Source: a virus
Length of the DNA stretch: 64,000 nt
Virus record (IMG/VR): IMGVR_UViG_3300005910_000004
Span: 62,001-126,000 of that record
Direction: 5' to 3' (one strand)
The notes beneath the pieces are model-generated. The model was not told the origin of the DNA. It did not search any database and saw only the letters and a list, made by a program, of their open reading frames with translations. Position 1 is the stretch's first letter. Every line of letters begins with the position of its first letter. Positions 9,832-49,900 of the stretch are shown piece after piece. Made by a program: the position numbers and the translations under genes.

Positions 9832-9905
9832 GCTCTCGTAGCTCAACTGGCTAGAGCAGAGGTCCCTAAAACCTTGTGTTCCGGGTTCGAATCCCGGCGG
9901 GAGTA
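9832..9905 (+). tRNA. tRNA with CUA anticodon (possible amber suppressor), C33
   Basis: The acceptor GCTCTCG/CGGGAGT, D arm GCTC/GAGC and T arm CCGGG-TTCGAAT-CCCGG form a good cloverleaf. The anticodon arm GAGGT-CCCTAAA-ACCTT places CUA at 34-36, which would read UAG, with C33 in place of U33. Unlike the other tRNAs here it has no encoded CCA. TAG is used as a normal stop in this window, so suppression would be partial at best, or the gene may be degenerate. Confidence 0.6.
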
Positions 9906-18906: not shown

Positions 18907-20395
18907 ACAAGAATTGTTTAATTTATATGGAAAGCGTGATTATTTTTCACTGGATGAAATCAATAAAATAGTAACTGATCGAGGGATGGATACATATAGT
19001 ATTATTACTGATGTTGATAGTTACAAGGTAGGGCATTGGCCTTTATATCCAAGAGATACGATATCAATTTATTCATATTTTGAATCTAGAAATGGAGCGA
19101 AATATAATAACACTATATTCTATGGTCTGCAGTATATCGTTAAGAAATACTTGACTGGTATAGTTGTTACTCAAGAATTGATTGATGATGCTGATGAGTT
19201 ATTCTTTTCTCATTTTGGAAATCACACTACATTCAATAAAGAAATGTGGCAACATATTCTTAAAGAGTGGGGTGGAAAGCTTCCTTTAACTATTCGGGCT
19301 GTCCCTGAAGGTCTTCCAGTTGAGAAGTCAAATGTCTTAATGACTGTTAAGAATAATGGTGGTCCGATATGTGCTTCTCTTACTAATTATGTTGAAACAT
19401 TATTAACTCGAGTATGGGCATCATCAACTACAGCAACATTGAGTTACGAGATTAAGAAAATGATTCGTCATTACCTTGATAAAACTTGTGATGATAATAT
19501 GATAGATGCTGTATTACCATATATGTTACATGATTTTGGCGCTAGGGGTGTTTCAAGTTATGAATCATCCGTTCATCAGGGTTCTGGGCATCTTCTGAAT
19601 TTCTTAGGTACTGATACTGTATCGGCTCTTAAGCATATCAGAAAATATTACAACATGCCTTCATATGACGGACTTGGATATTCAATCATTGCTACTGAAC
19701 ATAGTATCATGACTGCGAATGGAGAATCAGGTGAAAAGGATATTTTTCATAATTTGGTTCGAGAAAATCCAACTGGTGTTGTAGCATGTGTGATTGATAG
19801 TTATAATTATCAGAGATTCATTCTTCAGTATGCTCGTGAACTTAAAGATGAAATTTTAGCTAGAGATGGAAAGTTAGTTTTTCGTCCTGATAGTGGAGAT
19901 CCTGATAGTGTATCATTAGAAGTTAATCAGATGCTTGAATCTGTATTTGGCACTAGTCGAAACTCAAAGAATTATCTTGTATTGAATCCAAAGGTTGGAT
20001 CAATATGGGGTGATGGTATTGATTATAATGGTATGCGAGGAATCCACAATACAATTACCATGAATGAATATGCAGCTCAGAATACTGGATTCGGTTGTGG
20101 TGGTGGACTGTTACAGAAAGTTAATCGAGATGATCAGCGATTTGCGTTTAAATGTAGTGCCCGTCAAATCGGAGAAGATACATGGAAGGATGTATGGAAG
20201 AAACCTTTGGATATTAGTAAAGCATCTAAACGTGGTCGTTTCAAGTTGATTCGAAATAATATGTCTGGTAATAAGTTTATGACTGTCCCATTTGATACAC
20301 CTGGTGATGATATATTGGAAGATGTATTTTATAATGGTGATATAATGAGAGATATGACATTTACTCAATGCCGAGAAAATACAATGATAATGTAG
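18893..20395 (+). CDS. nadV: Nicotinamide phosphoribosyltransferase (NAMPT/NadV)
   Basis: This 500-residue enzyme condenses nicotinamide with PRPP to NMN. Visible motifs are SRNGAKYNNTIFYGLQYIVK near 65-84, the HDFGARGVSSYES loop (about 221-233), TEHSIM (about 265), FRPDSGDPDS (about 330) and GCGGGLLQKVNRD near the C-terminus. The length matches the NAMPT family. The start at 18893 lies within the homing endonuclease, so it is translationally coupled or has been trimmed by the insertion. NMNAT upstream completes NAD+ synthesis. A terminator follows. Confidence 0.95.
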   Translation: MIDCKQELFNLYGKRDYFSLDEINKIVTDRGMDTYSIITDVDSYKVGHWPLYPRDTISIYSYFESRNGAKYNNTIFYGLQYIVKKYLTGIVVTQELIDDADELFFSHFGNHTTFNKEMWQHILKEWGGKLPLTIRAVPEGLPVEKSNVLMTVKNNGGPICASLTNYVETLLTRVWASSTTATLSYEIKKMIRHYLDKTCDDNMIDAVLPYMLHDFGARGVSSYESSVHQGSGHLLNFLGTDTVSALKHIRKYYNMPSYDGLGYSIIATEHSIMTANGESGEKDIFHNLVRENPTGVVACVIDSYNYQRFILQYARELKDEILARDGKLVFRPDSGDPDSVSLEVNQMLESVFGTSRNSKNYLVLNPKVGSIWGDGIDYNGMRGIHNTITMNEYAAQNTGFGCGGGLLQKVNRDDQRFAFKCSARQIGEDTWKDVWKKPLDISKASKRGRFKLIRNNMSGNKFMTVPFDTPGDDILEDVFYNGDIMRDMTFTQCRENTMIM

Positions 20396-30575: not shown

Positions 30576-30794
30576 ATGGCAAAACTCCAAATTGTCTATG
30601 ACGTATCTGATGATACTGAAACTATAATAAAAGCAGTTGAAGATAGCGTTAATTTAAATAAAGAAGAATCAGAAGTATATAATTTATTACAGATAAAGTT
30701 TCAAGCTGCATTTGATGAAGGACGAAAGTTCCAGAAGCATTTAATGCAAAGTTCAAGTGTTCGGGATTCATTATTATATAAGGCCGAAATATGA
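30576..30794 (+). CDS. Hypothetical protein (72 aa)
   Basis: CAGGAG precedes the ATG. The product is acidic and helical (MAKLQIVYDVSDDTETIIKA start). Its last bases overlap the next start (ATGA at 30791). No family is recognised. Confidence 0.6.
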   Translation: MAKLQIVYDVSDDTETIIKAVEDSVNLNKEESEVYNLLQIKFQAAFDEGRKFQKHLMQSSSVRDSLLYKAEI

Positions 30795-31651
30795 CCGATG
30801 TAAATAATACGGTGTTGCAGAAAATTCAGAAGTTATTATCTGTTGCTGACGAAAGTTCGAATGCGGCAATAGGTGAAACTGCTAATGCAATGGCATTGGC
30901 TCAGAAACTTTTAAGAAAGCATCATCTATCAATGAGTCAAGTATTGGCATTGGATTCTGGTAATGAAGGAAGTTCTGATCTATTAGAAGTTAAAGAATAT
31001 GAAAGTGTATCATTTAAGGCAAATGTTGTTCCTCTGTGGATGATGGATCTCATCAAGGCAGTGAATAGAATAACACAAACAAAGACATTGATAAAGAGAA
31101 CACCTAGAGAAGGAAATGTTTATTCGGAATTGAAGATTATTTTTATAGGGGATCCTTTAGATGTATTAACTGCATCTGAATTATTTAATTTCCTAAGAAA
31201 ATCAATTACTAAATTATCGTCCAAACATCAGAAAGAATCAGGTGGAAAATTTAAACAATGGAGATCTTTTGCAGAAGGGTGTTCAGATACACTCCTAACA
31301 AGATCAAGAGCTATAGATGATAAAATAGATAAAGGGTTAGATAAGATATTTGAGTCGAGTACGGATGATTTAGATATTTCAAATTTTGAGTTAGATGACG
31401 ACGACGAATATGATATTATAGATGATGATGAATTTGATGATTTATTGCATGATGAAACTGCCTTAGTATTATTTGGTCAGTATAGAGATGCTAAATATCA
31501 AAGAATTTCAGATTATATAAATGATAAAGAAGTTGAAGATGAACAATCATCTAGCACAACTTCAAAAGTCGATAGTAATTCATATATACTAGGAACTGAA
31601 GCGGGAGAAATAATCCCACTTAAATTAAACAAACAAGTTGAGGAACATTAA
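30791..31651 (+). CDS. DUF2786-domain protein (286 aa)
   Basis: The N-terminus VLQKIQKLLSVADESSNAAI plus ANAMALAQKLLRKHHLSMSQ matches the DUF2786 helical domain. The central part (about 75-180) resembles the second domain often fused to it (LKIIFIGDPLDVLTASELFN). The C-terminal third is acidic and repetitive (DDDDEYDIIDDDEFDD). This domain is common in phages; its biochemical role is not established. Coupled to the preceding gene by ATGA. Confidence 0.75.
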   Translation: MTDVNNTVLQKIQKLLSVADESSNAAIGETANAMALAQKLLRKHHLSMSQVLALDSGNEGSSDLLEVKEYESVSFKANVVPLWMMDLIKAVNRITQTKTLIKRTPREGNVYSELKIIFIGDPLDVLTASELFNFLRKSITKLSSKHQKESGGKFKQWRSFAEGCSDTLLTRSRAIDDKIDKGLDKIFESSTDDLDISNFELDDDDEYDIIDDDEFDDLLHDETALVLFGQYRDAKYQRISDYINDKEVEDEQSSSTTSKVDSNSYILGTEAGEIIPLKLNKQVEEH

Positions 31652-31652
31652 A

Positions 31653-32261
31653 ATGGCATCAAAGAAAACATTGTTGGAAAAGATCATAGCTGGCGTAAAG
31701 AAAGATGGTATGAGCGCAACAGCACTTGCTAAATCAATTGGATATACTAAAGCTGCACAGATCATGAGTGATCTAACTGAAGCAGTTAAAGCGGGTAGTG
31801 TTATTGTTAATTCATCTGGCAGATTCCCATTATATTCAAAGGGTGAAGCCAAAACAGCTGTTAAGAAAGCAGATGATAAATCAAAGACAACTATTGTCGA
31901 GGGCGAGAAACCTAAGGGAGAACTTCCAGAGGCATCTAAAAAAGAGATGGCTGGATATCGGGTTTCTAATATTCGCCATAAGAAAAAGGCAATGAAGAAA
32001 GTAACAACTCCTGATGGTCGTAAGATCCGCATTGAGAATGATGAGCAGTTAATGGTTATTAATGGCTCTCCGAAATATGTGGTTAAAACATCACAGGATG
32101 TAATCAAATGTATTCGTAAATATGCAGTTGATAATAAGATGACAACATTCACAGTGAATGACATCAAAATGAATAAGAAAGTAACGAATGATAAAGACGT
32201 CGAGATTAAAGATGGTCATCTGATGTTTCTGAGTATTCGTAAGCATAACAAAGCTGCCTAA
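31653..32261 (+). CDS. Basic winged-helix-like DNA-binding protein candidate (202 aa)
   Basis: The ATG at 31653 begins one base after the upstream stop; an in-frame start at 31638 lies inside that gene. Residues 1-55 (MASKKTLLEKIIAGVKKDGM then ATALAKSIGYTKAAQIMSDL) look like a helix-turn-helix. A Lys-rich linker and a second domain (about 100-195, GRKIRIENDEQLMVINGSPK) follow. The excess of Lys and Arg suggests nucleic-acid binding. A strong terminator follows. Confidence 0.6.
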   Translation: MASKKTLLEKIIAGVKKDGMSATALAKSIGYTKAAQIMSDLTEAVKAGSVIVNSSGRFPLYSKGEAKTAVKKADDKSKTTIVEGEKPKGELPEASKKEMAGYRVSNIRHKKKAMKKVTTPDGRKIRIENDEQLMVINGSPKYVVKTSQDVIKCIRKYAVDNKMTTFTVNDIKMNKKVTNDKDVEIKDGHLMFLSIRKHNKAA

Positions 32262-32323: not shown

Positions 32324-34192
32324 ATGTCTAACAGAAATAGATTTCGTATTACACAATGTTCATTAATCCCTAAATTATCATTTGAATCACAGAATAGATT
32401 AATTAGATTACTAAAAGAAATATTTGATGAAAACCCAGTAATTGAAGATTTGAAATCAAATATATCTTTTGATAAGATGAGCAGTAACGGAGCCATAAAT
32501 CCGATAGCTAAATTAATATTTTCAGATTCAGGAAATGGTACTAATTCAGCATTAGTTGATAACAATGAAGAACGGCATTATTCTTCAATCCGATTTACAG
32601 ATTTCACACCTCGAAATTTATCTAATAATAGTTTATATAGCAGTCGAGATAGTCAATATACTAGTGAAAATTTTTGGACAAATTCATATAATAAAAATTG
32701 GACTGATGGAATAGCTTCTAAAAAATATGGAATTAATGTTTTAAGAAAGATAACTGCTAAAGGCTATATGTTAAATTTTAATGATGTTCGTAAATTGATA
32801 GAAGAGAGTATATCAAACCGGACAAATATTTTAGATAGCATAAATGAATTTTATTATTATTCCGATAAGAATTACCTATTGGGTGTATCAACAACAAATG
32901 GAATTTTAATGTTTAGGATGCAGGCAGTAATAAAAATATTAAATCAGAATAATGATCAAGATGTAAAAAAATGTTTCAGAAATTTGTTGATGTGTTTTCA
33001 TAAATTTTTAGATCAATTTATTAATATGAATATACGAGAAGTCCAGAATGATCTAGGGGGTCGATTAAAACAATCAGCTATGAATCGAATGATTAATAAT
33101 AATAGTTATAATCGACAATTTTATAGATATGCATCTGAGAATGCTGACTTAGATGAATTTAAAGCTAGAGTAGATTCATATATTGATGAATCAATAAAAT
33201 CAGCATTTAAGGGTACTGTATTTGGTATTGATGATCAGTACTCATATTCCAGAATCTTATCTACGTTCATATCGAGTAGACGTAAACGAGAAAAAAATGT
33301 TTTCAAACGAGGATTCGCAAAAGGGATGCGTATAGGTTTAAAATTTGAAATGTTTGGATGGGAGCCATGCGATCCTAGTTTTGCCGATGGTAGGGATGAT
33401 AGTTCAATGTGGTGGAGTAAAGAAGTTGAGATAAGACCAGATAGTTTAGTATGGAAGAATCAGAGATATCTAATTCCTGAATTAGAAAGAACTTATCTCG
33501 TAACTAAATTATATATCAATCAAGAGGGGGAAATGAGAGCAACGGGTGACCATCCTAATGTTAGTGGTAGTGATGTATGTATGGGAAATCTATCTGTTGA
33601 TTTCACAAAGGCTGATATTGATTTTGGTGAATCATTAGTTAGAGTAGAAGAGTTGCTTGACATGATCAATTATGATTCATCTTATCATAACGAAAAAAGA
33701 GATCATTTACTTGACGTTTCGGAAATCCAAGAGTCATTATTTTCTACTGACGATCGAACTATTGCTGAACGAGTCCGTGATGCATCTAGTATTAGAGAAC
33801 TTGGAGATGATGAAGATGATGATGAAGATGAAGAGATTAGTGATGAAGAAGTTAACGAACTAATGGGAATAGTGACAATAAATGATAATAATGGAGATAG
33901 CATAGCTGAGATTCAAACATCCCCATCACATAATAATACGGAACCATTAAGAGGAGATAATTATTCAATGAATGATATTGTTGATGATATGGTTAATGAT
34001 ATGGAAGATGATGCTATTCTTGGTGATTCTGTATATGAATTGGATGAATCAGTATCAATTAATGATCTGAGTACAATTAATGAAAATGGTGAACAGCGGC
34101 AGTTAGTGTTTACTCCACCTCCGCCACCACCAGTATATGCTCCTATGACATTTTCGTTAGGGGATACTAACTTAGTTGGAGGTACACAATGA
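32324..34192 (+). CDS. E2-like (UBC/RWD-fold) conjugating protein candidate (622 aa)
   Basis: The E2 signature lies at 410-421: H410-P411-N412 then VSGSDVCMGNL with the predicted catalytic C419, preceded by strands (YLIPELERTYLVTKLYINQE) and followed by a helix as in UBC folds. The H-to-C spacing is one short of the classic HPNxxxxGxxC. The N-terminal 300 residues are an unknown helical domain. An acidic disordered segment (DDEDDDEDEEISDEEVNE) and a Pro run (TPPPPPPVYAP) precede the C-terminal LVGGTQ, a GG two residues from the end. It overlaps the E1 gene by ATGA and heads a three-gene operon. Domain call is from motif reading alone. Confidence 0.62.
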   Translation: MSNRNRFRITQCSLIPKLSFESQNRLIRLLKEIFDENPVIEDLKSNISFDKMSSNGAINPIAKLIFSDSGNGTNSALVDNNEERHYSSIRFTDFTPRNLSNNSLYSSRDSQYTSENFWTNSYNKNWTDGIASKKYGINVLRKITAKGYMLNFNDVRKLIEESISNRTNILDSINEFYYYSDKNYLLGVSTTNGILMFRMQAVIKILNQNNDQDVKKCFRNLLMCFHKFLDQFINMNIREVQNDLGGRLKQSAMNRMINNNSYNRQFYRYASENADLDEFKARVDSYIDESIKSAFKGTVFGIDDQYSYSRILSTFISSRRKREKNVFKRGFAKGMRIGLKFEMFGWEPCDPSFADGRDDSSMWWSKEVEIRPDSLVWKNQRYLIPELERTYLVTKLYINQEGEMRATGDHPNVSGSDVCMGNLSVDFTKADIDFGESLVRVEELLDMINYDSSYHNEKRDHLLDVSEIQESLFSTDDRTIAERVRDASSIRELGDDEDDDEDEEISDEEVNELMGIVTINDNNGDSIAEIQTSPSHNNTEPLRGDNYSMNDIVDDMVNDMEDDAILGDSVYELDESVSINDLSTINENGEQRQLVFTPPPPPPVYAPMTFSLGDTNLVGGTQ

Positions 34193-34950
34193 ATTTAAAT
34201 TCAGAAATTCAAAATCGGCAAGAAGATATTAGAACTCATTCATATCAACATGCTGTTATTGCTGGAGTTGGTGGTATTGGTAGTTGGGTTGCTTTAGATC
34301 TCGCATTGAGTGGGACAGTTAAGACAATTCATTTAATAGATCCAGATTCAGTAGAAAGTAGTAATCTTAACAGGACTCCATTCAGATTATGTGATGTTGG
34401 ATTTCCAAAGGTTGATGCTTTGAAATATCTGATTCTTGAACGAAGGGCTAATGTAGATGTTATAACATATAAAGATAAGACTTGTACTAATCAAATAGCT
34501 ATGATGAAATCTCGTATAGAAAATGATATTAATTTTGATAGACATGCTATTGGTGAGATAATAGATGAACTGTTAATCATAGATTGTCGAGATGATGTAT
34601 ACGAAGATTTATACCAGTTTAATTGTAAATATTATAAAGTAGGTTATGATGGCTTATCAGTGACTATTGATGGGAATCCGAGACATACTGCTGTGTGGGG
34701 GGAAGCGAATAATTACACATTTACTCCTTCTTTCATAGCACCATCTCAAATGATTGCATCTATTGTTGTTACTGATGCAGTTGCTATGAAGGACTTAGAT
34801 GAGGATTTTAATCGTCCTGGTATGGATAACATATCTAATATTGAATCTTTCGATCTAAGAGGTCGAATTAATAAAACATTCACAGTAGACACTCGAGATA
34901 TAGTGGCTACATTGTACCGAGAATATTTAGAAGGGAATGCATCCGAATGA
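34189..34950 (+). CDS. E1/ThiF-like adenylating enzyme (253 aa)
   Basis: Residues 21-62 show the E1/MoeB/ThiF nucleotide-binding fold: AVIAGVGGIGSWVAL (GxGGxG, 26-31), IDPD with D51, and SSNLNRTPF with N61/R62. K74 follows in DVGFPKVDALK. LLIIDCRDDVYE (about 128-139) matches the ThiF IDCTDN region. At 253 residues it is the size of ThiF/MoeB. No catalytic Cys is certain; C99, C133 and C146 are candidates. It overlaps both neighbours by 4 bases, so E2-like, E1-like and JAMM proteins are co-translated. Confidence 0.82.
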   Translation: MNLNSEIQNRQEDIRTHSYQHAVIAGVGGIGSWVALDLALSGTVKTIHLIDPDSVESSNLNRTPFRLCDVGFPKVDALKYLILERRANVDVITYKDKTCTNQIAMMKSRIENDINFDRHAIGEIIDELLIIDCRDDVYEDLYQFNCKYYKVGYDGLSVTIDGNPRHTAVWGEANNYTFTPSFIAPSQMIASIVVTDAVAMKDLDEDFNRPGMDNISNIESFDLRGRINKTFTVDTRDIVATLYREYLEGNASE

Positions 34951-35897
34951 TAAAAGAATTAGGTTTTGACGTAGATGATGATGGAGATGTTGAACTGAAA
35001 GATGTGTCTGAAGAATCACTTCAAAGTTCTTCAACTACTGGGAGTGATCATTGGACTTTAGATTCATTAGTTCCAATTACTCTTCCTATTGTATGTAATG
35101 TGCCACAGAGAATTGTTATCTTTATGAGAAGCATTGAACGACATATGGCATTACAAGGAATGAGTGGATTGGAGTTTGGTGTTTTTCTAAAGGGGAAATT
35201 TGAGGGAGGAGTATTAAATGTAGATCCGGATTCACATTTTATCCCTCAACAGAAAGTATCTGGAGGAGCAATTGATTTTGAGGAAGATCCTCCAGGTGAT
35301 GATTATAATGGAGTAGTACATCGACATCCAACTGGATGTAGACAATTCAGTGGTGTTGATGCAATGCATATAAATAGAAATTTTGAATTTTCTATTTTGT
35401 ATGAAGGGAATAATATCATATTAGGTATTATTAACGTTACTTGCGGTGATATCAGAATTCAATTACCTCTCACTATCAATGTTCAATATCCGGTATTTAA
35501 TATTGAAGATGCAGATACTATCTTAATGAAGATTAAGAAAAAGAGTATGGGTGGAAGTTCTTCAACAGCTAAAGATTATCGTCTTGGTAAACTTCTCACA
35601 GAAGGAGACAGAGATGAAGATGGGATTCTAACTTTTGAAGATCGAGATGTCACCCAAGATTCTTTTGGGTTTGATCGAGAAGATGATGAAGATAGAATAT
35701 TCCTTTGCCGTCATTGTGGTGGAGCTAATATTATTGATACATTCCCCTATGCATGTGATTCATGTAATATGATTCTTACAGATGATGATGTAGAGGAGAT
35801 TTTTGATATAGGTGAATTAGAATCATGTGACCAAGAAGAAGTTGTTGAAAAACTTGAATCGAGAAAACAAAAAGAAATAGAAGTAGAAGAGGAATAA
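34947..35897 (+). CDS. JAMM/JAB metalloprotease with C-terminal zinc ribbon (316 aa)
   Basis: The JAMM site is E76 in SGLEFGVFLKG and VVHRHPTGCRQFSGVDAM: H125-x-H127-P...S135-x-x-D138. These ligate catalytic zinc in deubiquitinase-like enzymes. The C-terminus has LCRHCGG and YACDSCN (C254, C257, C270, C273), a zinc ribbon. An acidic tail closes the protein. It probably trims or removes a ubiquitin-like modifier, or processes the GG-containing tail of the E2-like protein. Last gene of the operon. Confidence 0.85.
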   Translation: MIKELGFDVDDDGDVELKDVSEESLQSSSTTGSDHWTLDSLVPITLPIVCNVPQRIVIFMRSIERHMALQGMSGLEFGVFLKGKFEGGVLNVDPDSHFIPQQKVSGGAIDFEEDPPGDDYNGVVHRHPTGCRQFSGVDAMHINRNFEFSILYEGNNIILGIINVTCGDIRIQLPLTINVQYPVFNIEDADTILMKIKKKSMGGSSSTAKDYRLGKLLTEGDRDEDGILTFEDRDVTQDSFGFDREDDEDRIFLCRHCGGANIIDTFPYACDSCNMILTDDDVEEIFDIGELESCDQEEVVEKLESRKQKEIEVEEE

Positions 35898-36006: not shown

Positions 36007-37041
36007 ATGAAAAAGAGAGCTGCAGTGGGTGATATCCACCTTAGTGGATTTGAATCGGATTTGTTAGATGATTTGAATTTACCTATTCGGTTGGGGCTGA
36101 TCATGAAAACCCTTGAATTTATAATTAGCGAATGTCGGAAAAGACATATAATTGATATTGATATTTTGGGTGATTTGATTAATGATAAGTCTATTATTTA
36201 TACAGTAGCACAAAATCAATTTTCTGAATTTTTAATTAGACATGCAGATATCAATTTTACTATAATATCGGGAAATCATGATAATTCATCAGTTGGAGAA
36301 AATCAGAAGAGCGCGATTTCTGTTTTTGATGCATATCCAAATGTGCAATGTATTCCATATCGCCCATTGGTTATTGGGAATATTACTTATATCCCACATA
36401 CTAAAAATTTTATGGATGAGATTATTGATTGTGAACCGACTGATATATTGATTTCTCATCTAGGATTGAATGAAGCTCATTTAGCTTCCGGATTGAGTGG
36501 TGTTGATAAAATAACAATGAATGATATATCGAAAAAATTCAAACTTGCTCTTCTGGGGCATTATCATTCACCTCAATATTTAAAAAATGATAATGTGAGA
36601 ATTTATTATGCTGGAAGTATATATCATCGAGATTGGGGAGATAAAAATGAACATAAGATGTTTCTTATCTATGATACTGAAACTTTAGAGGTTGAGCAGA
36701 TTCCAATTACTGGATTCCGAGAATTTAAAGAATATACTATTGAAACCATAGAACAGAAAGCTGATATTCTACAGAAGGCTGAAATTGCCAGAAATAAGGG
36801 ACATCTAGTTCGGATCAAGAATAAGTCTGGTGTGAAATTGAAAGATGAAGTTTCTGATGGGGTACTTGTTGTTGAGACAGTTGAGATTGATATTACCAAT
36901 CGAGGTATTGAAATCACTCAGACTCGAGAGGAGCAATTAAAGAAGTATATGGAAATCAAAGAAATTCCAGAAGAAAATCGTGTTGAGTATTTAGACTTTC
37001 TGGCTAAATATGATATTCTTACTAAGGGGGTTACTGAATGA
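36007..37041 (+). CDS. sbcD: SbcD/Mre11-type nuclease (T4 gp47-like)
   Basis: The phosphoesterase motifs are visible: VGDIHLSG (about 7-14), ILGDLIND (about 53-60), IISGNHDN (about 90-97), ISHLGLNE (about 150) and LGHYHSPQ (about 184). It would form a nuclease complex with the SbcC gene downstream and act on DNA ends during recombination and replication. Length (344 aa) is normal. It overlaps a small gene at 37038. Confidence 0.9.
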   Translation: MKKRAAVGDIHLSGFESDLLDDLNLPIRLGLIMKTLEFIISECRKRHIIDIDILGDLINDKSIIYTVAQNQFSEFLIRHADINFTIISGNHDNSSVGENQKSAISVFDAYPNVQCIPYRPLVIGNITYIPHTKNFMDEIIDCEPTDILISHLGLNEAHLASGLSGVDKITMNDISKKFKLALLGHYHSPQYLKNDNVRIYYAGSIYHRDWGDKNEHKMFLIYDTETLEVEQIPITGFREFKEYTIETIEQKADILQKAEIARNKGHLVRIKNKSGVKLKDEVSDGVLVVETVEIDITNRGIEITQTREEQLKKYMEIKEIPEENRVEYLDFLAKYDILTKGVTE

Positions 37042-37453: not shown

Positions 37454-40051
37454 ATGCAAGATATTTATATATACAATATCACGATGAAGAATTGTCGTTG
37501 CCATTATGAAATGGAAATGGACTTCCCGATAGATAGTTTTACTGTGATCCAAGGTAAGAATGGAGCAGGAAAATCTACTATCCCAAAAGCCGTTTCGATG
37601 GGGTTATATGGGGATGATGGTGCTCCTCCTGGTGATAAAATTACAATTGCAGATATGGTAAATCGAAAGACGGGAAAAGATTTAGAGATTAAAACTTATT
37701 TCCGAGTAGTTGATTCAGATACCAATACCACTGATGAATATAGAACTGAACTGTATTATGAACATAAGAAATTTCATAATCAATTCTTCTTATTCAAGAA
37801 TGATATTCCGATAACCGGGAAAACAAAAGCTGACACATATAAATTAATTGAAAAGATTCTTTATCCAAAAGACATTTATCATAACGTGATTAACTTTAGC
37901 CAACAAGTTAAGAACTTCTTCACCTCCCTGACTAATACTCAACAGAAAGAGATTTTTGATTCAGTATTACAGACTAAGGTGTACAATACTTATTATAAGA
38001 ATGCTTTTGAAGTAGAAGGTGTATTGAAGAAAGATATTCAAGATGTGACTATTTCTATTGATAAAATTAAGCAAGAAATTGAATGGAAATCTCAAAGTAT
38101 TGAACGATTAATATCTGATAAAGAATTAGCTGAGAAGAAGAAACAAGATAGTTTAGATAGTCATAAACTAACTAAAACACGATTAGAAAATGAAATACAA
38201 TTGATTGCCATTCAGATTAATGAAATGGGATTTGATTCCAACAAATTAGATCAATTGAAAACTGAAATTATTATATTGCGGCAAAAATTAGATCAGGTCT
38301 CTAAAACATTATTTGATGATTTGGATAAATCAGATAATAAAAAGTCGGCTGAGATAGTAGTAATAAATAATGACTTTATTAATAGATGCCGAGAAGAGAT
38401 ACAGGTAGTCAAAGATTCATGTGAAGTTAAATTAGAAAAGCTCAGAAATGACAAGGCTGATAATTATTTGAAGATTTCGGAGATATCAAAAAAATATGAT
38501 ACTACTCCAATAACCAAAGATTGTTCTGACTTTGAAAGAGAGAAACAGAAAGAGATACAACAAGTTAATTTCTCTATCAATCAATTAGAAGTTGAATTTT
38601 CAACATCTACACTTGAGCATGAGAAAGAGACTAGACTTGGCATCATTGAGAAGAATGCTCAGGATCTAAGAGATAATGCATCTGAATTAAAAAGTGATGC
38701 TGCATCTATAAAAACTAACATTGATGAAAAACAGTTATCAGTGACAAAAGATGAAGAATCTTTATTAGGTGAATCTCCAACATGTAGTAAATGTTTGAGA
38801 CCATTTACAAGTGATGAAGATATTGAGATCATTAAGAAAGATATATCTAAAGGTAAAGCTATCATAATAGACCTTAATGTTCAATTTAAGTCTATTGAAG
38901 ATAAGATGGTTGTTCTGAAAGCTGAATTTAAAGAATGTACTGAGGTGAAGGATAAAGCCCGATCTGATTATGATGATAAAATTAATGATGTCAAAATTAA
39001 GAAAAATAAGAGAGCTGAAGAATTTCAGAGAAAACTCGAATTACTTAATAACGAGATTGTTGAATATAGAAGGATCAGTGAAGTTAAGATTAATGAACTC
39101 AAATCTAATATGGATAACGAGACTGAAGTTTATAGAACTAGGCAGCTTGATATTGATACTAGATCAGCTGACATTCAATCTAAATGTGATATAGATGAAA
39201 CTGAAATAGCTAATAGGTTTGATTTAGAAAGACAAAATAAACAATCCGAACATAATAAAAAGTATATACAACTTCAGACTGATATTACTAATTCTTCAAA
39301 ATCTAAATCTGAAGTCGATTCTGCTAGATTCAGTGTAGTTGAATCTCAAATTAAGATCGAATCAGATGCAAAAATTCAATATGATATCTTAGTTGATTCA
39401 AAAAATGGTAAGGGGTACGAATTAGATAATGTCAAAACGAATATAATCAACATTGAAAATGAAGAAGATATTGATGATACTCGAATTGAAGTGGAGAAAT
39501 CTGAGAAACTACTTATTGAACAAAAACATATAGATGAAATAGCGAAAAGGGGTTTGATCGAAAGGGAACTAGAAATCTTATTATTTTGGAAAAAGTCATT
39601 TTCAGATACTGGAATTAAGAGTATGTTGATAGATATGGCAATTCCTCATATGAATGAATCAGTGGCAGAAGCTTTAGAGAAAATTGCACCTGGTATATTC
39701 ACGGTTTCATTTGATACTCTCAGTGAGACTAAGAGTGGGGATATTCGAGATAAGTTTAAAGTTAAAGTTTTACATAATATTAAAGGAACAGATAGTCACA
39801 AGATGCTTTCCGGTGGTGAAAAGAGAATGGTTGATTTGGCATGTATGGAAGCATTAAGATCATTAACAGAGAGATTATATAATAAGAGAATACATAATCT
39901 ATTTTATGATGAAGTATTGGATTCTTTAGATGCAGATAATAGACAGATATTTTGTCAACTATCAAAATTAATATCTAGAGATAAAAATGTCACACTTATC
40001 ACTCACAATACAGCTGAAGATATGGAACCTGATAGGATATTTAAAATATGA
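37454..40051 (+). CDS. sbcC: SbcC/Rad50-type ATPase (T4 gp46-like)
   Basis: The start at 37454 has GAGAGGAT upstream; the TTG at 37439 is less likely. Walker A is QGKNGAGKST (about 34-43), the zinc hook is C444-x-x-C447 (TCSKC) between long coiled coils, the ABC signature is MLSGGEKRM (about 783) and Walker B NLFYDEVLDSLD (about 815). All parts of a functional Rad50-like SMC ATPase are present at 865 residues. Partner of the SbcD nuclease. Confidence 0.93.
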   Translation: MQDIYIYNITMKNCRCHYEMEMDFPIDSFTVIQGKNGAGKSTIPKAVSMGLYGDDGAPPGDKITIADMVNRKTGKDLEIKTYFRVVDSDTNTTDEYRTELYYEHKKFHNQFFLFKNDIPITGKTKADTYKLIEKILYPKDIYHNVINFSQQVKNFFTSLTNTQQKEIFDSVLQTKVYNTYYKNAFEVEGVLKKDIQDVTISIDKIKQEIEWKSQSIERLISDKELAEKKKQDSLDSHKLTKTRLENEIQLIAIQINEMGFDSNKLDQLKTEIIILRQKLDQVSKTLFDDLDKSDNKKSAEIVVINNDFINRCREEIQVVKDSCEVKLEKLRNDKADNYLKISEISKKYDTTPITKDCSDFEREKQKEIQQVNFSINQLEVEFSTSTLEHEKETRLGIIEKNAQDLRDNASELKSDAASIKTNIDEKQLSVTKDEESLLGESPTCSKCLRPFTSDEDIEIIKKDISKGKAIIIDLNVQFKSIEDKMVVLKAEFKECTEVKDKARSDYDDKINDVKIKKNKRAEEFQRKLELLNNEIVEYRRISEVKINELKSNMDNETEVYRTRQLDIDTRSADIQSKCDIDETEIANRFDLERQNKQSEHNKKYIQLQTDITNSSKSKSEVDSARFSVVESQIKIESDAKIQYDILVDSKNGKGYELDNVKTNIINIENEEDIDDTRIEVEKSEKLLIEQKHIDEIAKRGLIERELEILLFWKKSFSDTGIKSMLIDMAIPHMNESVAEALEKIAPGIFTVSFDTLSETKSGDIRDKFKVKVLHNIKGTDSHKMLSGGEKRMVDLACMEALRSLTERLYNKRIHNLFYDEVLDSLDADNRQIFCQLSKLISRDKNVTLITHNTAEDMEPDRIFKI

Positions 40052-41141: not shown

Positions 41142-41714
41142 ATGATAGATCAACCTTTAATTGTGGGTTGTGGAACTGTTGGATCAGTACTAGCTATATC
41201 ATTAGCAAAATCAAAATTGATTAGTCAATTAAAAATATATGATTTTGATGTAGTTAGTCGGTTCACAGAAAATCCATCATATCCTTTTCTTAAAGAAGAG
41301 GGTAGCATCCCAAAAATAAAAATAGTGAGATTTCAATGTAAATATGAAAATCCTTCAATGGAAGTAGAAGTATTCATGGAAAAGATTGAACGTCCAATAG
41401 AAGGAAATGGTTTTGTTATTGATTGTCGTGATTGTAAAAGTCCCGATATAAATGCTGATATTAGAATATCGTTAGATGGTTATATGTTATACATCGATAG
41501 TATGTCGAAACAAGATGCATTAGATTATCATCGTTATATTATATCAAAGAATCCATATTATATTGAATCTGCGGCATTTAAAGTTTTGGAATATCTAAAG
41601 AATGATCAATATCTATATAAAGATTTTAGATTTTATAATTTGAAAACAAATAACATACATATATTGAAAAGGGAAAATTTATATGACAAGTCAAAAAAGC
41701 ATTTTGAATTATGA
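41142..41714 (+). CDS. Second, reduced E1/ThiF-like protein (190 aa)
   Basis: The N-terminus PLIVGCGTVGSVLAISLAKS has the GxGxxG nucleotide motif (9-14), then LKIYDFDVVSRFTENPSYPF with the acidic D34/D36 at the end of the second strand, and later GFVIDCRDCKSPDIN, parallel to IDCRDD in the first E1. The conserved Asn-Arg of E1 enzymes is not obvious (SRFTENP stands in that place). It is shorter than ThiF/MoeB, so it may be a divergent or partner E1. It overlaps the next small gene by 32 bases. Confidence 0.6.
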   Translation: MIDQPLIVGCGTVGSVLAISLAKSKLISQLKIYDFDVVSRFTENPSYPFLKEEGSIPKIKIVRFQCKYENPSMEVEVFMEKIERPIEGNGFVIDCRDCKSPDINADIRISLDGYMLYIDSMSKQDALDYHRYIISKNPYYIESAAFKVLEYLKNDQYLYKDFRFYNLKTNNIHILKRENLYDKSKKHFEL

Positions 41715-41937
41715 ATTATTAGAAAGAGATTTGGAGGTTTTTAAGGAGAAGCATATTATAGCAGAAATTCCTATATTAAATATTCAAAAGGAGATTGATT
41801 TTGTAGATATGGATAAATTAAAAGATACAATTTTGAAAATGGCAAAAGAGTTTCCTCATTCTAGAGTTGCTGTAACGTATGATCCATCATTAAAAGATAT
41901 AAAAATGGAGATCCATCCAGTGACAGGTGCTGCATGA
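41683..41937 (+). CDS. Hypothetical small protein between E1- and E2-like genes (84 aa)
   Basis: The ATG lies 32 bases inside the E1-like gene. The product is helical with a beta end (RVAVTYDPSLKDIKMEIHPV then TGAA). Its size and position between E1-like and E2-like genes make it a candidate modifier or adaptor, but I see no ubiquitin-fold signature. It overlaps the next gene by ATGA. Confidence 0.5.
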   Translation: MTSQKSILNYELLERDLEVFKEKHIIAEIPILNIQKEIDFVDMDKLKDTILKMAKEFPHSRVAVTYDPSLKDIKMEIHPVTGAA

Positions 41938-42545
41938 AATTGGATATTATAAGAATATGTAAAAAATTTAAAGTATCACTTGATTCTATTGATTTGAATA
42001 AAGAAGTTCCTGATATTATATCAAATATAGAAGATGCAATTTTATATGATGGAATATATCATGAAAATCCTAGATGGTTAATGGCAGAATTATGGAGGAT
42101 AGAATGTTCTTATGAATTAAAGAAATTGGAATCAACTACATCATTTAATGAAGGTTTAAGAGAAATTTTAGATAAGGATCATTATTATATTGAAGATGAT
42201 TTTTTAGTATGTGATAAATTAATATCATGCTCGATGATTCAAAATAATAATAGAGTTTCTATTTTAAATGATATTCGACAAAAAAAAATTAAAGATTTAG
42301 GATATGGAATTTCAAAATATAGGATTTTGAAAAACTTGAATATTCAAGAAGTATATTGTGAAGGTTGCCATCCAAATTTAAATAATGTTAGTAACCAATT
42401 CTGTTTAGATTCTCGCTTTTTAGATTTACCATTGAATTATGAAAATATATTACTTTTAGAAGTGATGTTATCACAATTCAATATTTCTCAATCATATTTA
42501 AATCGTGATGAATTACAACCTCTAATGGAGATTATCGATGAGTGA
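41934..42545 (+). CDS. Second E2-like conjugating protein candidate (203 aa)
   Basis: Residues 141-190 carry an E2-like signature: YCEGCHPNLNNVSNQFCLDS with H146-P147-N148 and predicted catalytic C157, then a helix and YLNRDEL. The H-to-C spacing is one longer than in classic E2s. The N-terminal half contains strands and helices (WLMAELWRIECSYELKKLES) as expected for a UBC/RWD core. It is much shorter than the first E2-like protein. It is coupled to the upstream genes by ATGA and directly follows the E1-like/84-aa pair. Confidence 0.55.
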   Translation: MKLDIIRICKKFKVSLDSIDLNKEVPDIISNIEDAILYDGIYHENPRWLMAELWRIECSYELKKLESTTSFNEGLREILDKDHYYIEDDFLVCDKLISCSMIQNNNRVSILNDIRQKKIKDLGYGISKYRILKNLNIQEVYCEGCHPNLNNVSNQFCLDSRFLDLPLNYENILLLEVMLSQFNISQSYLNRDELQPLMEIIDE

Positions 42546-43056: not shown

Positions 43057-45936
43057 ATGAAAATAGATTTTTTTGACGTGGATGCTTTCTGTGTTGATCT
43101 ACCTGCCGTTACCACGAATAAGATATATTCTAAAAAAGGGTTTCACCCCAATGGGTTATTTTCAGAAAAAATTTTTGGCCCAGTAAGAACATGTACTTGT
43201 GGGTGTGGTATATATTGGGGACGATCAAAGATTGGTGAAACTTGTAGTATTTGCGGTGTCGAGATTGGAAATTCGAGTCTTCGTAGAAAAAAGTTTGGGA
43301 AAATCGTGTTACCCTTTCCAGTTATCAATCCAATTATGACATATCTTATAACTCGAGCTGGTAAAGTAACTATTAGTAAAGTTGTTGATGCAATGATTAA
43401 TGATGATTCTGTAATGGGGTTTTATTTTAATGTTAAATCGAAACGATATATTAAAGTGAATGTTCCAACTATTGAAGATGAAGCAGTTGAATTGCCTGAA
43501 GGTGTAATATTATATACAGGATCTAATGGTATATATGATTTGATTAAATTTGAATCTGAAAGACTTATGGATACCAATCCAACATGGAAGTTTGTGAATG
43601 AAAATCTTCATAAATTCTTCATGAAGAATGTTATTATATGTCCGCCTGAGTTTCGACCAGTATCAAAAACTAAAGATGCCCAGATGCGGGATAAAATGAA
43701 TGAATTCTATATGACTATTTTGAATTTTGCTTTAATGTTAGAAAACGATGTTTCAACATATGAGAATTCTGAAATTCAAATGATTAATTTTAAGAATTTG
43801 CAGAGATATGTATTTAATTTTTATGATTATGTCTTTTCAAAATTTTCTAAAAAGTCTGGATTGATTCGAGGATCAATACTTGGTAAAAGAATTGATTTTT
43901 CCGCACGCGCTGTGATATGTCCTGGTCCAGAATTAGAATTAGACCAAGCTTCTATCCCATATACTATGGCATTGGAGTTATATAAATTAAAGGTTGTTAA
44001 TAGATTACTTGAAATAAAGCATGTTGGGGAACATCGATTTGTGCGATATGACCCGACTATTGATTATGTTAATACCTGTATAGCAATGAAAGATTATTCG
44101 TTGATGGAGATTGTTCAAGAAATTACGAAAGATCAATTGATTATTTTAAATCGTCAACCCACTCTTCACAGAATGGGATTGTTATCTTTTAAAATAAAAA
44201 TTAATACTGATGATGTTATTAAAATTCATCCATGTATATGTGAACCATACAATGCTGATTTTGATGGAGATCAGATGGCAGCATATATTTCATTGTATGA
44301 TAAAACGTTACAATCAAATTATGATAAAATATTTATTTTAAAGAATTTGATTTCTCCCTCAACTGGGAAGATGATTCTTGGTATCAATCAGGATATATTG
44401 CTTGGTTTATATTTAATGACTAAAGATGATGCATCTACAGTGTGTGATTATGATGGGAGTAATATAAAAATAGGACCTGATGGGATTGAAGTTGATAAAC
44501 AGACTACAAAAAGTAGAATTACATTCAATGAAGTGTTTCCAGATGATTTCCCATTTATCAATAAAATAATTGATAAGAAAGAAATCAATATTCTTCTGAA
44601 TGAGGTTGTTCATAGATATGACCCAGAAGTAGTGAAATTAGTTGTTGATAAAATTAAGAAACTTGGATTGCGGGAGACTACATTACGAGGGGTTACCTTT
44701 TCATTGAAAGATTTGGATGATGAAGGTTCTTATGATGTTGTATCAGCAATTGTTGATGATCCCGATAAAAGTATAGTAGATAAATTTCATGAGTTAAACG
44801 ATAGTCCCTATAAGAAACATGTACAGGAAATATTTCCATATTCTGATTTTATTAAATCGGGATCTCGAGGTTCATGGGATCAAGCTAATCAGTTAATATT
44901 CTGTCGTGGATATATGTCAAATTCTAAGGGTGAAGTTGTTCCAACACCAATTAAACATAATTTAGTATCTGGTTTAACGAGGGATGAATATTTTATCTCT
45001 TGTTATGGATCACGGAAAGCTTTGTTGGATGTGGCATTAAATACAGCTGTATCTGGATACTTGACACGAAAATTAGTATATTGTAGTGCCAATCTTGAAT
45101 TAGAGGAAGAGTTGGATGATTGTGGTACTACGGATTATTTGACTTTGAAGATTCCAAGAAACATTAGTGATGAAGAAATTGAATCAATGGTATCTCATAT
45201 TGAGGATGAAAATGAGAAAAAAATTCAAAAGAATATTCTATTAAATGAAAAGAATGAATTGGATGCAATTAAATTAGCTCGTAGTTTAGTTGGGAGATGG
45301 CATTATGATGAGAATGGTGACTTGACGTTAATAACTGATAGTAATTATTTGGATTTATGTGGAAAAACATTAAAATTGAGATCTCCAATATATTGTAAAT
45401 CTTCACGAATATGCAAGAAATGTTATGGAGAAAGTAGCAAATCTTGTCATTCAAAATATATAGGTGTAATTGCAGCTCAAGCACTTGGCGAAGTTGCAAC
45501 TCAATTAACACTTCGAACATTTCACACTGGTGGAATTGCGGTAATGTCAAGAGAACAAGAAGATGAAAATCAGAAGGATATCATAAGTGATTTAACTGTT
45601 GTAAATAAACTTCTTCATGGAACAATGAAGATTGACGCGTTAGAATTGTTAAAACGTTTGTTTACTATATATGTTCAACATAAGACATTGTTGTTAGTTC
45701 ATTTTGAATGTGTTATATCACAAATGATGAGATGCGGTGATAGTCGATGGAGGTTGATGCCCGAACGACATAAAGAAGATCATCAAATTATATCAATTGA
45801 AAATGTACCTTCTAAAGAATCATTCCTTCTTGCTTTGGCGTTTAGTAAACCCCATGCATATATCGTAAATGGTATAATTGGGGATGCAATTACAACAGAT
45901 GGGATATTAGAGAAGATGTTAACGAATAGTATATAA
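43057..45936 (+). CDS. rpoC: RNA polymerase beta-prime subunit homologue (959 aa)
   Basis: The active-site motif NADFDGDQM is at residues 399-407. An N-terminal zinc region has CTCGCG and ETCSICGVE (about 47-67). Further catalytic-core segments are GKRIDFSARAVICPGPELEL (near 278) and the bridge/trigger-loop region ALGEVATQLTLRTFHTGG (809-826). A second Cys set (SRICKKCYGESSKSC) precedes it. The whole catalytic core is in one chain, unlike the split subunits of phiKZ-type phages. It is shorter than bacterial beta-prime (about 1400 aa), lacking large insertions. With RpoB downstream it probably forms a phage RNA polymerase. Confidence 0.93.
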   Translation: MKIDFFDVDAFCVDLPAVTTNKIYSKKGFHPNGLFSEKIFGPVRTCTCGCGIYWGRSKIGETCSICGVEIGNSSLRRKKFGKIVLPFPVINPIMTYLITRAGKVTISKVVDAMINDDSVMGFYFNVKSKRYIKVNVPTIEDEAVELPEGVILYTGSNGIYDLIKFESERLMDTNPTWKFVNENLHKFFMKNVIICPPEFRPVSKTKDAQMRDKMNEFYMTILNFALMLENDVSTYENSEIQMINFKNLQRYVFNFYDYVFSKFSKKSGLIRGSILGKRIDFSARAVICPGPELELDQASIPYTMALELYKLKVVNRLLEIKHVGEHRFVRYDPTIDYVNTCIAMKDYSLMEIVQEITKDQLIILNRQPTLHRMGLLSFKIKINTDDVIKIHPCICEPYNADFDGDQMAAYISLYDKTLQSNYDKIFILKNLISPSTGKMILGINQDILLGLYLMTKDDASTVCDYDGSNIKIGPDGIEVDKQTTKSRITFNEVFPDDFPFINKIIDKKEINILLNEVVHRYDPEVVKLVVDKIKKLGLRETTLRGVTFSLKDLDDEGSYDVVSAIVDDPDKSIVDKFHELNDSPYKKHVQEIFPYSDFIKSGSRGSWDQANQLIFCRGYMSNSKGEVVPTPIKHNLVSGLTRDEYFISCYGSRKALLDVALNTAVSGYLTRKLVYCSANLELEEELDDCGTTDYLTLKIPRNISDEEIESMVSHIEDENEKKIQKNILLNEKNELDAIKLARSLVGRWHYDENGDLTLITDSNYLDLCGKTLKLRSPIYCKSSRICKKCYGESSKSCHSKYIGVIAAQALGEVATQLTLRTFHTGGIAVMSREQEDENQKDIISDLTVVNKLLHGTMKIDALELLKRLFTIYVQHKTLLLVHFECVISQMMRCGDSRWRLMPERHKEDHQIISIENVPSKESFLLALAFSKPHAYIVNGIIGDAITTDGILEKMLTNSI

Positions 45937-46193: not shown

Positions 46194-46893
46194 ACTATGT
46201 GCTTGTGGTTGTGGTCAAAAGGTGAAAGTTGGAAATAGATATATCAATGGTCATAATCGACCATGGATTGGAAAACATCTTTCACAGGATCATAAGATTA
46301 AAATTTCTAATAATAGACAAGGTCGAAAACTTTCAGATGAAACTAAATTGAAAATGTCTAAATCTCGAATTGGATCTAAACATTCCGAAGAAACATTGAA
46401 GAAAATGAGAGGTCAAAAACGATCATTAGAAACTAGAAGGAAAATTTCTAAAGCCCTCATGGGTCATCATGTATCCGATGAAACTAAAAAGAAAATGAGT
46501 ATTTCTACCATCAAATATATATCTGACACGGTATTTAATGGAGGACCAGCATATCCTCGGAATGGGAGAAATGAAAATCAAATAATTGAACGGTTAGAAC
46601 AGGCTGTGAATTTGGAGTTTTTGAAAAATGATTATGAGTTAGCATTGAAAATAGGTAAGTTTATGGATGCATACATTCCAAAATATAATTTAGATGTGGA
46701 AATTTTAGAATCTCATCATTTTAATATTGATGGGACTTTGAGCGATTATGATAAAGATAGAGAATTATTGATTTCCTCTAGATTGTCGTGTATGATTTAT
46801 TATATCCCAGAAAGTTCATTTTTATCAAATCCTAGAATGGAAATTCAACGATTTAAAGATTTTATTTCAATTTTAGATGAAAGTCGTAATTAA
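46183..46893 (+). CDS. NUMOD3 homing endonuclease with VSR-like C-terminus (236 aa)
   Basis: An N-terminal CACGCGQKVKVGNRYINGHN zinc motif is followed by four NUMOD3-type repeats (GKHLSQDHKIKIS, GRKLSDETKLKMS, GSKHSEETLKKM, GHHVSDETKKKMS). The C-terminal domain (about 120-236) has KFMDAYIPKYNLDVEILESH, a PD-(D/E)xK or VSR-like (EDxHD) nuclease strand pair. It lies between the rpoC and rpoB homologues, a conserved site typical of homing genes. ATG at 46183 overlaps the RHH gene. Confidence 0.8.
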   Translation: MKNKLCACGCGQKVKVGNRYINGHNRPWIGKHLSQDHKIKISNNRQGRKLSDETKLKMSKSRIGSKHSEETLKKMRGQKRSLETRRKISKALMGHHVSDETKKKMSISTIKYISDTVFNGGPAYPRNGRNENQIIERLEQAVNLEFLKNDYELALKIGKFMDAYIPKYNLDVEILESHHFNIDGTLSDYDKDRELLISSRLSCMIYYIPESSFLSNPRMEIQRFKDFISILDESRN

Positions 46894-46909
46894 AGGAGAG
46901 ATTAATAGT

Positions 46910-49900
46910 ATGTTAGACGTACCGAGTTACCGGTTAAGAGATGTAAATGTTTTCAATTTCCGTGATCATGAATGGGATGAAGATAAAATAGTAGAAACTG
47001 TCACTCAGATGCTATCTTGCGGAGAGCCGTTTGGACTAAGAGTTAAGTCTGTTAGTATTAAAAATAAAGAAGAAAAAGATTTATCTGAGATAAAGAAAAC
47101 TAAGAGTAAGATTTTAGATATTGATATGGTCTATACTAATGAGGATGGTTCAGAAGATATTAATTTATCTTATGATATCCCTTGGCTTTTGAATAATCAT
47201 TTTTATATCGGTGGTAATTATAAAGTTGCTATATATCAATTATTTGATAAACCAGTGATAAAAAGAAAGAATATCATAAAGGTGAGGACTAATATCCAAT
47301 CAATTATGGTGGAGAAAAAAGTTACCACTCGTAGGAAATTTAATTATCAGATTAGTCTATTCGGAAAGAAATTCCCGTTTGCTAGATTGGTTATTGCTTA
47401 TTATGGAGTAGAGGGAACTAGAGATAAATTCCAGTTAGATGAAAATAATGAATATATTGGAACTGGGATTATATCAGAAGAATTAGATGAACTGACAAAA
47501 GATATCATATCTATTATGAATGATGTTTCTATTGATAAGACAAAGTTACTTGAATCTATTTTTGTGAGACGGACTGATGAGAAAATTTTAGATGATCTCA
47601 GATTGATGTTGCATATTGATTTATTTAGTGCTCGGTATTTTTATACGGATTCAATAGTAGAAGAATTCTTATATGCGATTCAGAATGAGATTTATGATGA
47701 TTCTGATTATGTAAATAAGAGAGTTCGATTTGTTGAACAGATTATATATGTTAATTTATGTAAGGATTTTTATAATCTGATCAATTCTGTAAAGAAAAAT
47801 CGGAAAGTTAAATTTTCTATAAATTCTAAAAGTATATCATCTAGTATCAATGTTTCAAATATTGTACAGTTTGATAATAGTTTAAATCCTTTATCTGAGT
47901 TGGCTTTATTATCCAAGACTTCATTATCTGGACCGGGTGGATTTGAAAAACAGAATGTACCTCAATCATTGAGGGAGATTCATCCAACAATGAAACATCT
48001 TTGTGATCCAGCTGATACAGCTGATAGAGAGGGATGTGGTACGACGCAATATTTGGTGCCTAATGTTAATATAAACCCAGATGGGAGTTTCTATTCCCAA
48101 TTAAATAATAATATAAATTCAATAGCTGTGAGTTTTGTTCCATTTTTGGAACATGATGATGCAACTCGATTGCAAATGGCATCGAGTCAGCAAAGACATG
48201 CTATTATGCTTAAGAAATTTGATTCTCCTATGATTCAAACTGGTGTTGAAGGAATGTATAGTGATCAGACATCTTTTATATTCAAAGCCAAAAGGAATGG
48301 TAAAGTAATATATATAGACCATGAAGTCATCATGATCCAGTATGATAATAAAGTATGTGATGCTTTTTATATTGGTTTTAGAAAATTGTATATTTCAGCA
48401 GTTGACTTTTACAAGGTGTATTATAATATTGGTGATGAATTCCGTGCTGGAGATATCATTGCTGAAACAAACTATATGAAGAATGGTAGAATCACATTGG
48501 GTCAGAATTTGTTAACATGCATCACTCCCTGGTATGGATATAATTTCGAGGATGGAATTGTTATATCTGAAAATATGGTGAATGACGATCGTTTTACATC
48601 AGTTCATTATAAAGATTTGATAATTGAAGTTAATAAAAATAAAGTCTTGCTGAATTTAAAGGATGATTATACTGATTATAAGCCATTGCCTGAAGTTGGT
48701 CAAGTATTGAATGTTGGTGATGTATATGCAAAAATTAAATCTATCAATACTGATGGATTTGATGATGTATTATTCGAACCTGTATCAGAATATAAAGCAG
48801 ATGAGACATGTAAAGTTGTTAGTATAAAAGTATATGCTAATAAATGGAATAAATGTTTTCCTCAGTTTGATGAATTTGTGAAACAGAAGGTTACCAAACA
48901 AAAAGGGAGAAAGGATGATCTAGTTACTAAGCTTTCGGATTATCTTACTAAAGATGAATTAGATAGAATGGTTGATACATTAGAAATCAATCAAACTGAA
49001 AAGAATAATTATAAGATCAAAGGTGATTACATTGATGGACTTCGTGTTGAAATAACTGTTGTCTATGAAAGAAAAATCTCTGTTGGTGATAAACTTGGAA
49101 ACCGTCATGGTAACAAAGGTGTCATTGCAAAGATTGTTCCTCATGAACAGATGCCAAAACTTCCGGATGGGAGGCATTGTGATATTGTAATTAACCCGTT
49201 GGGAATTACATCGCGAATGAATGTTGGTCAAGTATATGAAGCTCATTTATCTATGTCATTATGTGATTTGAAAAGTCAGATTCTTGAAATGTATGAGAAT
49301 GGTAATAAAGATAAAATATTTAAGCACGTATTAGATTATATTAAGATTATTGATCGAACTGCTGATTTTAATTATCATGCTCAGATGACCGCGATATTTG
49401 AAAAAATTACAGTTGATGATTTTATATCTGGACTGAATAATTTCTTCTTAATACAGCCACCATTTGAATCTGTAACAAGAAAGGAATTGGGACAAGCTTT
49501 AGAATATACTGGGACCCAGTTTGAGTATAAGGTATTTGAGCCTATTTCAAATCAATTTATTGAGAATACAGTAGCTTGTGGATTTCAATATTGGTTTAAA
49601 TTAAATCATATTGCTAAAGATAAAATTGCAGCCAGAGGAATTGGTCCATACTCAGCAAAGACTTCTCAACCATTAGGTGGGAAATCTCGAAAGGGTGGTC
49701 AGAGACTTGGAGAAATGGAGATATGGGCAGTGATTGCTCATGGTGATGAATTGAATTTAGAGGAATTTATATCCACTAAATCTGATTCTATACAGTTACG
49801 AAATAAATATATTTCAGAAGAGATGTGTAATGATGATCTATTATTGGATTCCGATGATGATATAGTTCCACAATCACTGAGATTGTTACAAACCAATTTG

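Follow-up and report, generated by a model that had tools for sequence, protein, structure and literature searches.

Two candidate ubiquitin-like conjugation cascades in a phage genome, one of them upstream of the RNA polymerase beta' gene

In type II CBASS (cyclic oligonucleotide-based antiphage signaling systems), Cap2/Cap3 combine E1, E2, and JAB chemistry with a protein tail as the donor, and Cap2 is an E2-E1 fusion that conjugates a CD-NTase. In Bil systems (BilABCD), separate genes for ubiquitin-like protein (Ubl), E2, E1, and JAB lie in one operon; BilA has two Ubl domains, BilB a CEHH motif, and BilD an inactive and an active adenylation domain together with a Cys domain (PMC11354881). 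Bacterial Ubl/E1/E2/JAB operons form a broader precedent (Iyer et al. 2006, PMC1779556), and phage lambda TAPI/TAPK is a Ubl plus JAB-NlpC in a tail-assembly locus (PMC1779556). We investigated a 64-kb window (the whole stretch of 64,000 nucleotides analyzed, positions 62001-126000 of the 141,546-base virus record IMGVR_UViG_3300005910_000004, which may be a fragment), and propose that it encodes two phage Ubl conjugation cascades, Ubl1-E2-E1-JAMM (set 1) and E1-2-Ubl2-E2-2 (set 2). We put the probability of this reading of the genes at about 0.72.

Like Bil, set 1 is a single operon in which Ubl, E2, E1, and JAB each have their own gene, but its E2 carries an HPN..C motif, its E1 is one short domain of 253 amino acids (aa), and its Ubl has a single domain ending in Ala. 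The chemistry and protein-tail donor of type II CBASS are likewise shared; the phage E1 and E2, however, are separate genes, no CD-NTase was seen among the adjacent genes, and PADLOC returned no match for the neighboring cassette genes. The sequence features tested thus exclude both Bil and CBASS. As in the neighborhoods of Iyer et al. (2006) and in PRTRC, genes for E1, JAB, E2, and small Ubls stand together, whereas the window's sets are phage-borne, two in number, equipped with HPN E2s, and located beside RNA polymerase. Membership in PRTRC is excluded by its ThiF model, which scores the window E1 at only 17.8 bits (cut-off 144.75). Lambda TAPI/TAPK shares a phage Ubl with JAB but has no E1 or E2. 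With the archaeal and eukaryotic ubiquitin cascade the window shares an HPN..C E2 with its 'LL..N.DS' helix and separate genes for E1, E2, ubiquitin, and JAMM, and differs in lacking an E1 Cys domain, in having no RING gene that we could find, in its Ala-ending tails, and in being virus-borne.

The crAss-like ThiF-JAB cassette (cr128_1, cr106_1, PhiCrAssBcn1) also pairs a ThiF gene with a neighboring JAB gene and encodes a large protein bearing an H..C(L/T)G motif, but its order differs, it has no HPN, and no RNA polymerase beta' is annotated beside it. Alignment of that large protein with the 622-aa E2-like protein of set 1 was unconvincing, and we do not claim homology. Toxin B and a designed repeat protein, which appeared as top matches, were dismissed as chance, the former lying outside the HPN..C region and the latter being a short local match. 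In cultured or named crAss-like and Flavobacterium phages (L220, PhiCrAssBcn1; L221, Fpv1; L008-L010), a JAB-motif gene adjoins a gene annotated as thiamine biosynthesis/ThiF, an annotation that is probably misleading. The open-licence literature, which includes few subscription journals, yielded no description of E1/E2/Ubl/JAMM cassettes in phages, nor of a link to phage RNA polymerase, and the terms ThiF, JAB, and E2-like are all absent from a jumbo-phage overview (PMC7824862).

The initial annotation of the window had described three genes sharing 4 bases with their neighbors, the first encoding a 622-aa protein with HPN at residues 410-412 and a candidate catalytic Cys at 419. The open reading frames (ORFs) 32324-34192, 34189-34950, and 34947-35897 (plus strand, as are the other genes of the two sets and the RNA polymerase and SbcD/SbcC-like genes located below) do share 4 bases at each junction, and both the HPN motif (H410-P411-N412; 33551-33559) and the predicted catalytic Cys419 (33578-33580) lie at the positions given. 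The E2-like protein, whose UBC-like core spans approximately residues 340-475, is identified by a profile search of PDB and by a leave-out hidden Markov model (HMM). The leave-out profiles, from which the sequences of the window and of the two closest relatives (L059 and L060) were omitted, were run on 553 ORFs of the genome and find the protein at E = 5.4e-7 (residues 390-465, HPN..C included). Across 12 aligned E2-like homologues, C419 is the sole invariant column (G421, L445, N449, D451, and S452 are nearly invariant); absence of a conserved C419 had been named as grounds for abandoning the E2 assignment, and the Cys is kept in 12/12. In the 11 aligned cores, Cys is present in 11 and HPN in eight. 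A PDB search with a profile of nine phage E2 cores returned 110 matches, and the best 60 of these 110 are all ubiquitin-conjugating enzymes, exclusively eukaryotic; the best is UBE2C (E = 2.4e-4), with an alignment spanning HPN..C and the 'LL..N.DS' helix. The 622-aa protein alone had no match in Pfam, and Pfam UQ_con weakly matches two of its relatives (0.012 and 0.017). Its assignment to the E2/UBC superfamily, made by sequence comparison, is solid. The C-terminal LVGGTQ of this protein was considered as a modifier tail and rejected, the L059 homologue ending without it.

The E1-like adenylating enzyme of set 1 (ThiF/E1, 253 aa, single domain; 34189-34950) matches PF00899 (7.4e-18) and contains the motifs ascribed to it earlier, namely GVGGIG (26-31), NLNR (59-62), and IDCRD. 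Residues G26, G28, G29, G31, D51, D53, N59, N61, R62, K74, and D135 are conserved in 11/11, and the adenylation site has its GxGGxG, DxD, and N.NR motifs as well as its K and D. The third protein (316 aa; 34947-35897) is a predicted JAMM/JAB metalloprotease with a C-terminal zinc-ribbon-like CxxC..CxxC. Alone, it matches Pfam PF14464 under the cut-off (E = 0.0079); the JAMM assignment is nevertheless firm because E76, H125, H127, S135, and D138, which bear out the JAMM motif first noticed in the window, are conserved in 11/11. The leave-out profiles find the E1 at 2.6e-53 and the JAB at 1.9e-19, and since E1, JAB, and E2 are all recovered among the 553 ORFs, these identities are more than chance.

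The E2, E1, and JAMM genes of the initial annotation stand, but that gene set was incomplete, having overlooked a Ubl-like gene upstream and a second E1/E2 set. The gene at 31653-32261 probably encodes the ubiquitin-like modifier of set 1, Ubl1 (202 aa, Ubl-like domain at approximately residues 130-202), as judged by its position, which is that of the Ubl gene in related cassettes, and by hhalign, which aligns the central part of its three-member family with the Ubls of other cassettes (prob 82, E = 1e-5). Its C-terminal tail KHNKAA (32241-32258) is identical in L059 and L060, being followed by 14 further residues in the former and by one Met in the latter. The N-terminal half is helical (winged-helix-like), and in some relatives a Rho_N domain (3.8e-13) is fused to the Ubl1 counterpart. 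In the AlphaFold model, the order of elements is b-b-a-b-b-310-b, as in ubiquitin (strands 132-136 and 139-144, helix 147-160, strand 165-170, a short bridge, a short helix, and strand 190-197), with a predicted local distance difference test (pLDDT) score of ~85 for residues 101-197; the alignment behind the model took in more distant cassette Ubls, so it is not fully independent of the Ubl assumption. The other cassettes' Ubls weakly match Pfam ThiS (0.0015-0.013) and TGS (5.7e-4), and the leave-out HMM search of the 553 ORFs missed Ubl1. Just 5' of the Ubl1 gene is a DUF2786/DUF7168 protein (30791-31651), with a similar protein at the same place in L059.

The same gene order was then to be sought in other phages, as the initial annotation had advised, and the Ubl-E2-E1-JAB cassette does recur. 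Scans of viral contigs and INPHARED with each of the three set-1 proteins singly found no close relatives, and alignment queries were used instead; an alignment of phage E1s found 42 loci, closer relatives came from a second scan, and A5 was dropped as a query because it was too divergent. Nearly all relatives are uncultured contigs. Ten have all four genes, in the order Ubl-E2-E1-JAB (L059, L060, L061, L062, L065, L015, and L016, the last two with a small Ubl gene first) or Ubl-E1-E2-JAB (L063, L064, and L066), and in every one Ubl and E2 adjoin E1 and JAB. All four genes are also present in L073, which was left out of profile building, and a JAB-motif gene adjoins E1 in most of the 42 loci. 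The E1s of L059 and L060 are 55% and 47% identical to that of the window. A contig labelled as an Acidilobaceae archaeon metagenome-assembled genome (L116:4183-5125) encodes, in surroundings that look chromosomal, a Ubl-like protein and an E1 with 36% identity to that of the window, and is a possible archaeal cellular relative.

Approximately 6 kb downstream of set 1, and upstream of the RNA polymerase beta' gene (43057-45936; beta gene at 46877-50254), is a second E1/Ubl-like/E2 set. E1-2 (190 aa; 41142-41714) matches PF00899 above the cut-off (1.2e-7) and is found by the leave-out HMM at 4.5e-11. It is followed by the candidate modifier Ubl2 (84 aa, ending PVTGAA; 41683-41937), which matches the C-terminal domain of relatives' fused E1-2, and by the E2-like E2-2 (203 aa; 41934-42545; HPN at 42369-42377, Cys157 at 42402-42404); a 171-aa ORF lies between set 2 and the beta' gene. 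H146, P147, and C157 of E2-2 are invariant in 41 aligned sequences, and hhalign links its family with that of the set-1 E2 (prob 97.4, E = 1.3e-11), by which homology E2-2, too, is assigned to the E2/UBC superfamily.

To select loci independently of E1 and E2, we scanned the viral contigs with beta' alone and took the best 80 of 523 matches (some being near duplicates), 71 of which have at least 3 kb upstream. E1-2 is present in 66/71, together with an HPN/HPH..C E2 in 58/71; a JAB gene is present in 53/71, and the adjacency of set 2 and beta' is thus conserved in related phages. In most of these loci, the Ubl2 counterpart is the C-terminal domain of E1-2. The C-terminal residue is Ala in 49/50 fused nonredundant E1-2 proteins, which is the fair count, because in the five split cases the ORF was chosen partly by its final Ala; with these included, 54/55 end in Ala and 47/55 have Gly at -3. 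The fixed C-terminal tail of E1-2/Ubl2 fits a donor tail. A second beta'/beta set is encoded by the same phage outside the window (G000, L002:19310 to L003:6512), where the profile search of the 553 genome ORFs showed no E1/E2 neighbors.

Several observations weigh against two conjugation cascades. HPN is absent, with Cys retained, from the E2-like proteins of L061, L015, and L016. The AlphaFold model of the 622-aa protein is of low confidence overall (mean pLDDT 48), and confident for approximately residues 340-475 alone, where a helix, strands, the HPN..C loop, and helices follow the UBC order; the E2 assignment is firm because of the relatives' conservation and profile homology, predicted structure alone being weak. 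Neither E1 has a catalytic-Cys domain, the one widely shared Cys of the set-1 E1 being located in DCRD. Foldseek found no significant match for the Ubl1 model, fold searches with Ubl2 gave no match, and profiles of the Ubl families drew nothing useful from PDB, with no beta-grasp match for Ubl1 or Ubl2. Modifier tails usually end in Gly; both tails here, strongly conserved, end in Ala and not in Gly-Gly. Set 2 has no JAMM gene of its own, no E3 or RING gene was found, and adjacency to RNA polymerase identifies no substrate. Ubl conjugation chemistry is likely for both sets, and the first proposal of a candidate phage system without a CD-NTase is upheld by E2 profile homology, conserved E1, E2, and JAMM residues, and the recurring cassette.

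We infer that Ubl1 and Ubl2 are modifiers and that the cascades flow as follows. In set 1, JAMM would trim any extension past KHNKAA of Ubl1, E1 would adenylate its C-terminal Ala, and Ubl1 would be handed to the E2 in thioester linkage to Cys419, where the HPN Asn would aid transfer to a target amine; JAMM might also remove the modifier later. Because no E3 was found, target choice may fall to the long N-terminal region of the E2. In set 2, E1-2 would activate Ubl2 (tail TGAA) at its C-terminal Ala and hand it to the Cys of E2-2 for attachment to protein.

The best reading of the conserved arrangement is that both cascades are standard equipment of a phage clade encoding RNA polymerase. As the target, we favor phage transcription or DNA/RNA machinery over the host-defense or structural proteins first suggested, because set 1 adjoins SbcCD, set 2 adjoins beta', and set-1 Ubls carry nucleic-acid-type domains. 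The SbcD-like (36007-37041) and SbcC-like (about 37454-40051) genes lie between the two sets and occur in the same order in L059/L139 and L060. A more specific proposal is tentative: that the two cascades are core to the clade, that set 2 (an E1 usually with its own C-terminal modifier ending G-(A/G)-A and a dedicated HPN E2) modifies phage RNA polymerase or transcription machinery, and that the HPN..C E2s form a viral E2 branch near the archaeal/eukaryotic type.

The cascades might instead modify host proteins (e.g., host RNA polymerase or immune proteins) for counter-defense or takeover. Many phages are known to modify host RNA polymerase with proteins of their own. Bacterial Ubl systems are reported to act in antiphage defense (PMC10097602, PMC11153139). 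Across the sampled clade, however, set 2 keeps its place beside the beta' gene of the phage itself, whereas genes for counter-defense tend to be patchily distributed and to lie in accessory regions; we consider host targets unlikely, though worth keeping in mind.

A sulfur-carrier role, in which an E1-like and a Ubl-like protein form a ThiS/MoaD-ThiF thiocarboxylate pathway (e.g., for tRNA or cofactor thiolation) with E2 and JAMM as accessories, is improbable. To our knowledge, E2s play no part in known sulfur relay, and a conserved HPN..C E2 accompanies E1 in both sets; the inspected genes near the sets showed neither a rhodanese nor a cysteine desulfurase, no specific search having been made. 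The single ThiF-like domain of the set-1 E1, its top NCBIfam model (ThiS adenylyltransferase), the ThiS matches of the cassette Ubls, and several tRNA genes in the genome are what one could cite for it. Still less probable are E2-like proteins acting as noncatalytic UEV/RWD-like scaffolds with JAMM as a virion-maturation protease: Foldseek ranks TSG101 UEV domains first for the low-confidence E2 model, without significance, and JAB proteases are known in phage tail assembly (PMC1779556), but UEVs lack the catalytic Cys, which is invariant in 12 set-1 and 41 set-2 proteins, and almost every locus couples the JAMM gene to E1. That the genes are a bacterial defense cassette of the Bil or Cap2/Cap3 type captured as cargo is scarcely credible: the enzyme classes agree and PADLOC gives weak 'E1-E2' matches to E1 alone, but it matches none of the E2, JAB, and Ubl genes, there is no CD-NTase and no E2-E1 fusion, the E1 is single-domain and the E2 HPN-type, and the genes are conserved beside beta' clade-wide.

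Other features of the window were noted. A leader reading MK.R..FVSNSSSSSFI is shared by otherwise different proteins that begin at 26463, 26895, 27224, 27568, 28255, 58081, 58529, 58924, and 59902 (seven by strict pattern, nine by eye); L139/L059, the closest relative, has four such proteins and L141 one. A tRNA gene called Pyl (anticodon cta; 9832-9905) may be an amber suppressor; translation recoding through it was dropped as an idea, since TAG still terminates 19 of the longer ORFs. Judged from translations, a NadM/Nudix-like protein (16959-17903) and a nicotinamide phosphoribosyltransferase-like protein (18893-20395) are possibly a phage NAD-salvage pair, and homing-endonuclease-like proteins lie at 17956, 22010, 46183, and 62070, one of them between beta' and beta.

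Bacterial Ubl conjugation is known mainly from antiphage defense; here, phages conserve E1, E2, and JAMM genes along with probable modifiers, and do so in two sets, of which set 2 is fixed beside phage RNA polymerase in the sampled clade. The sets are compact E1-E2-Ubl units open to direct testing in E. coli, and, if our reading is true, the many HPN-type E2s outside cells would be material for the study of E2 evolution. Phages would then use ubiquitin-type tagging in their own life cycle, and the conserved arrangement in related viruses suggests that protein tagging may be part of the normal viral life cycle.

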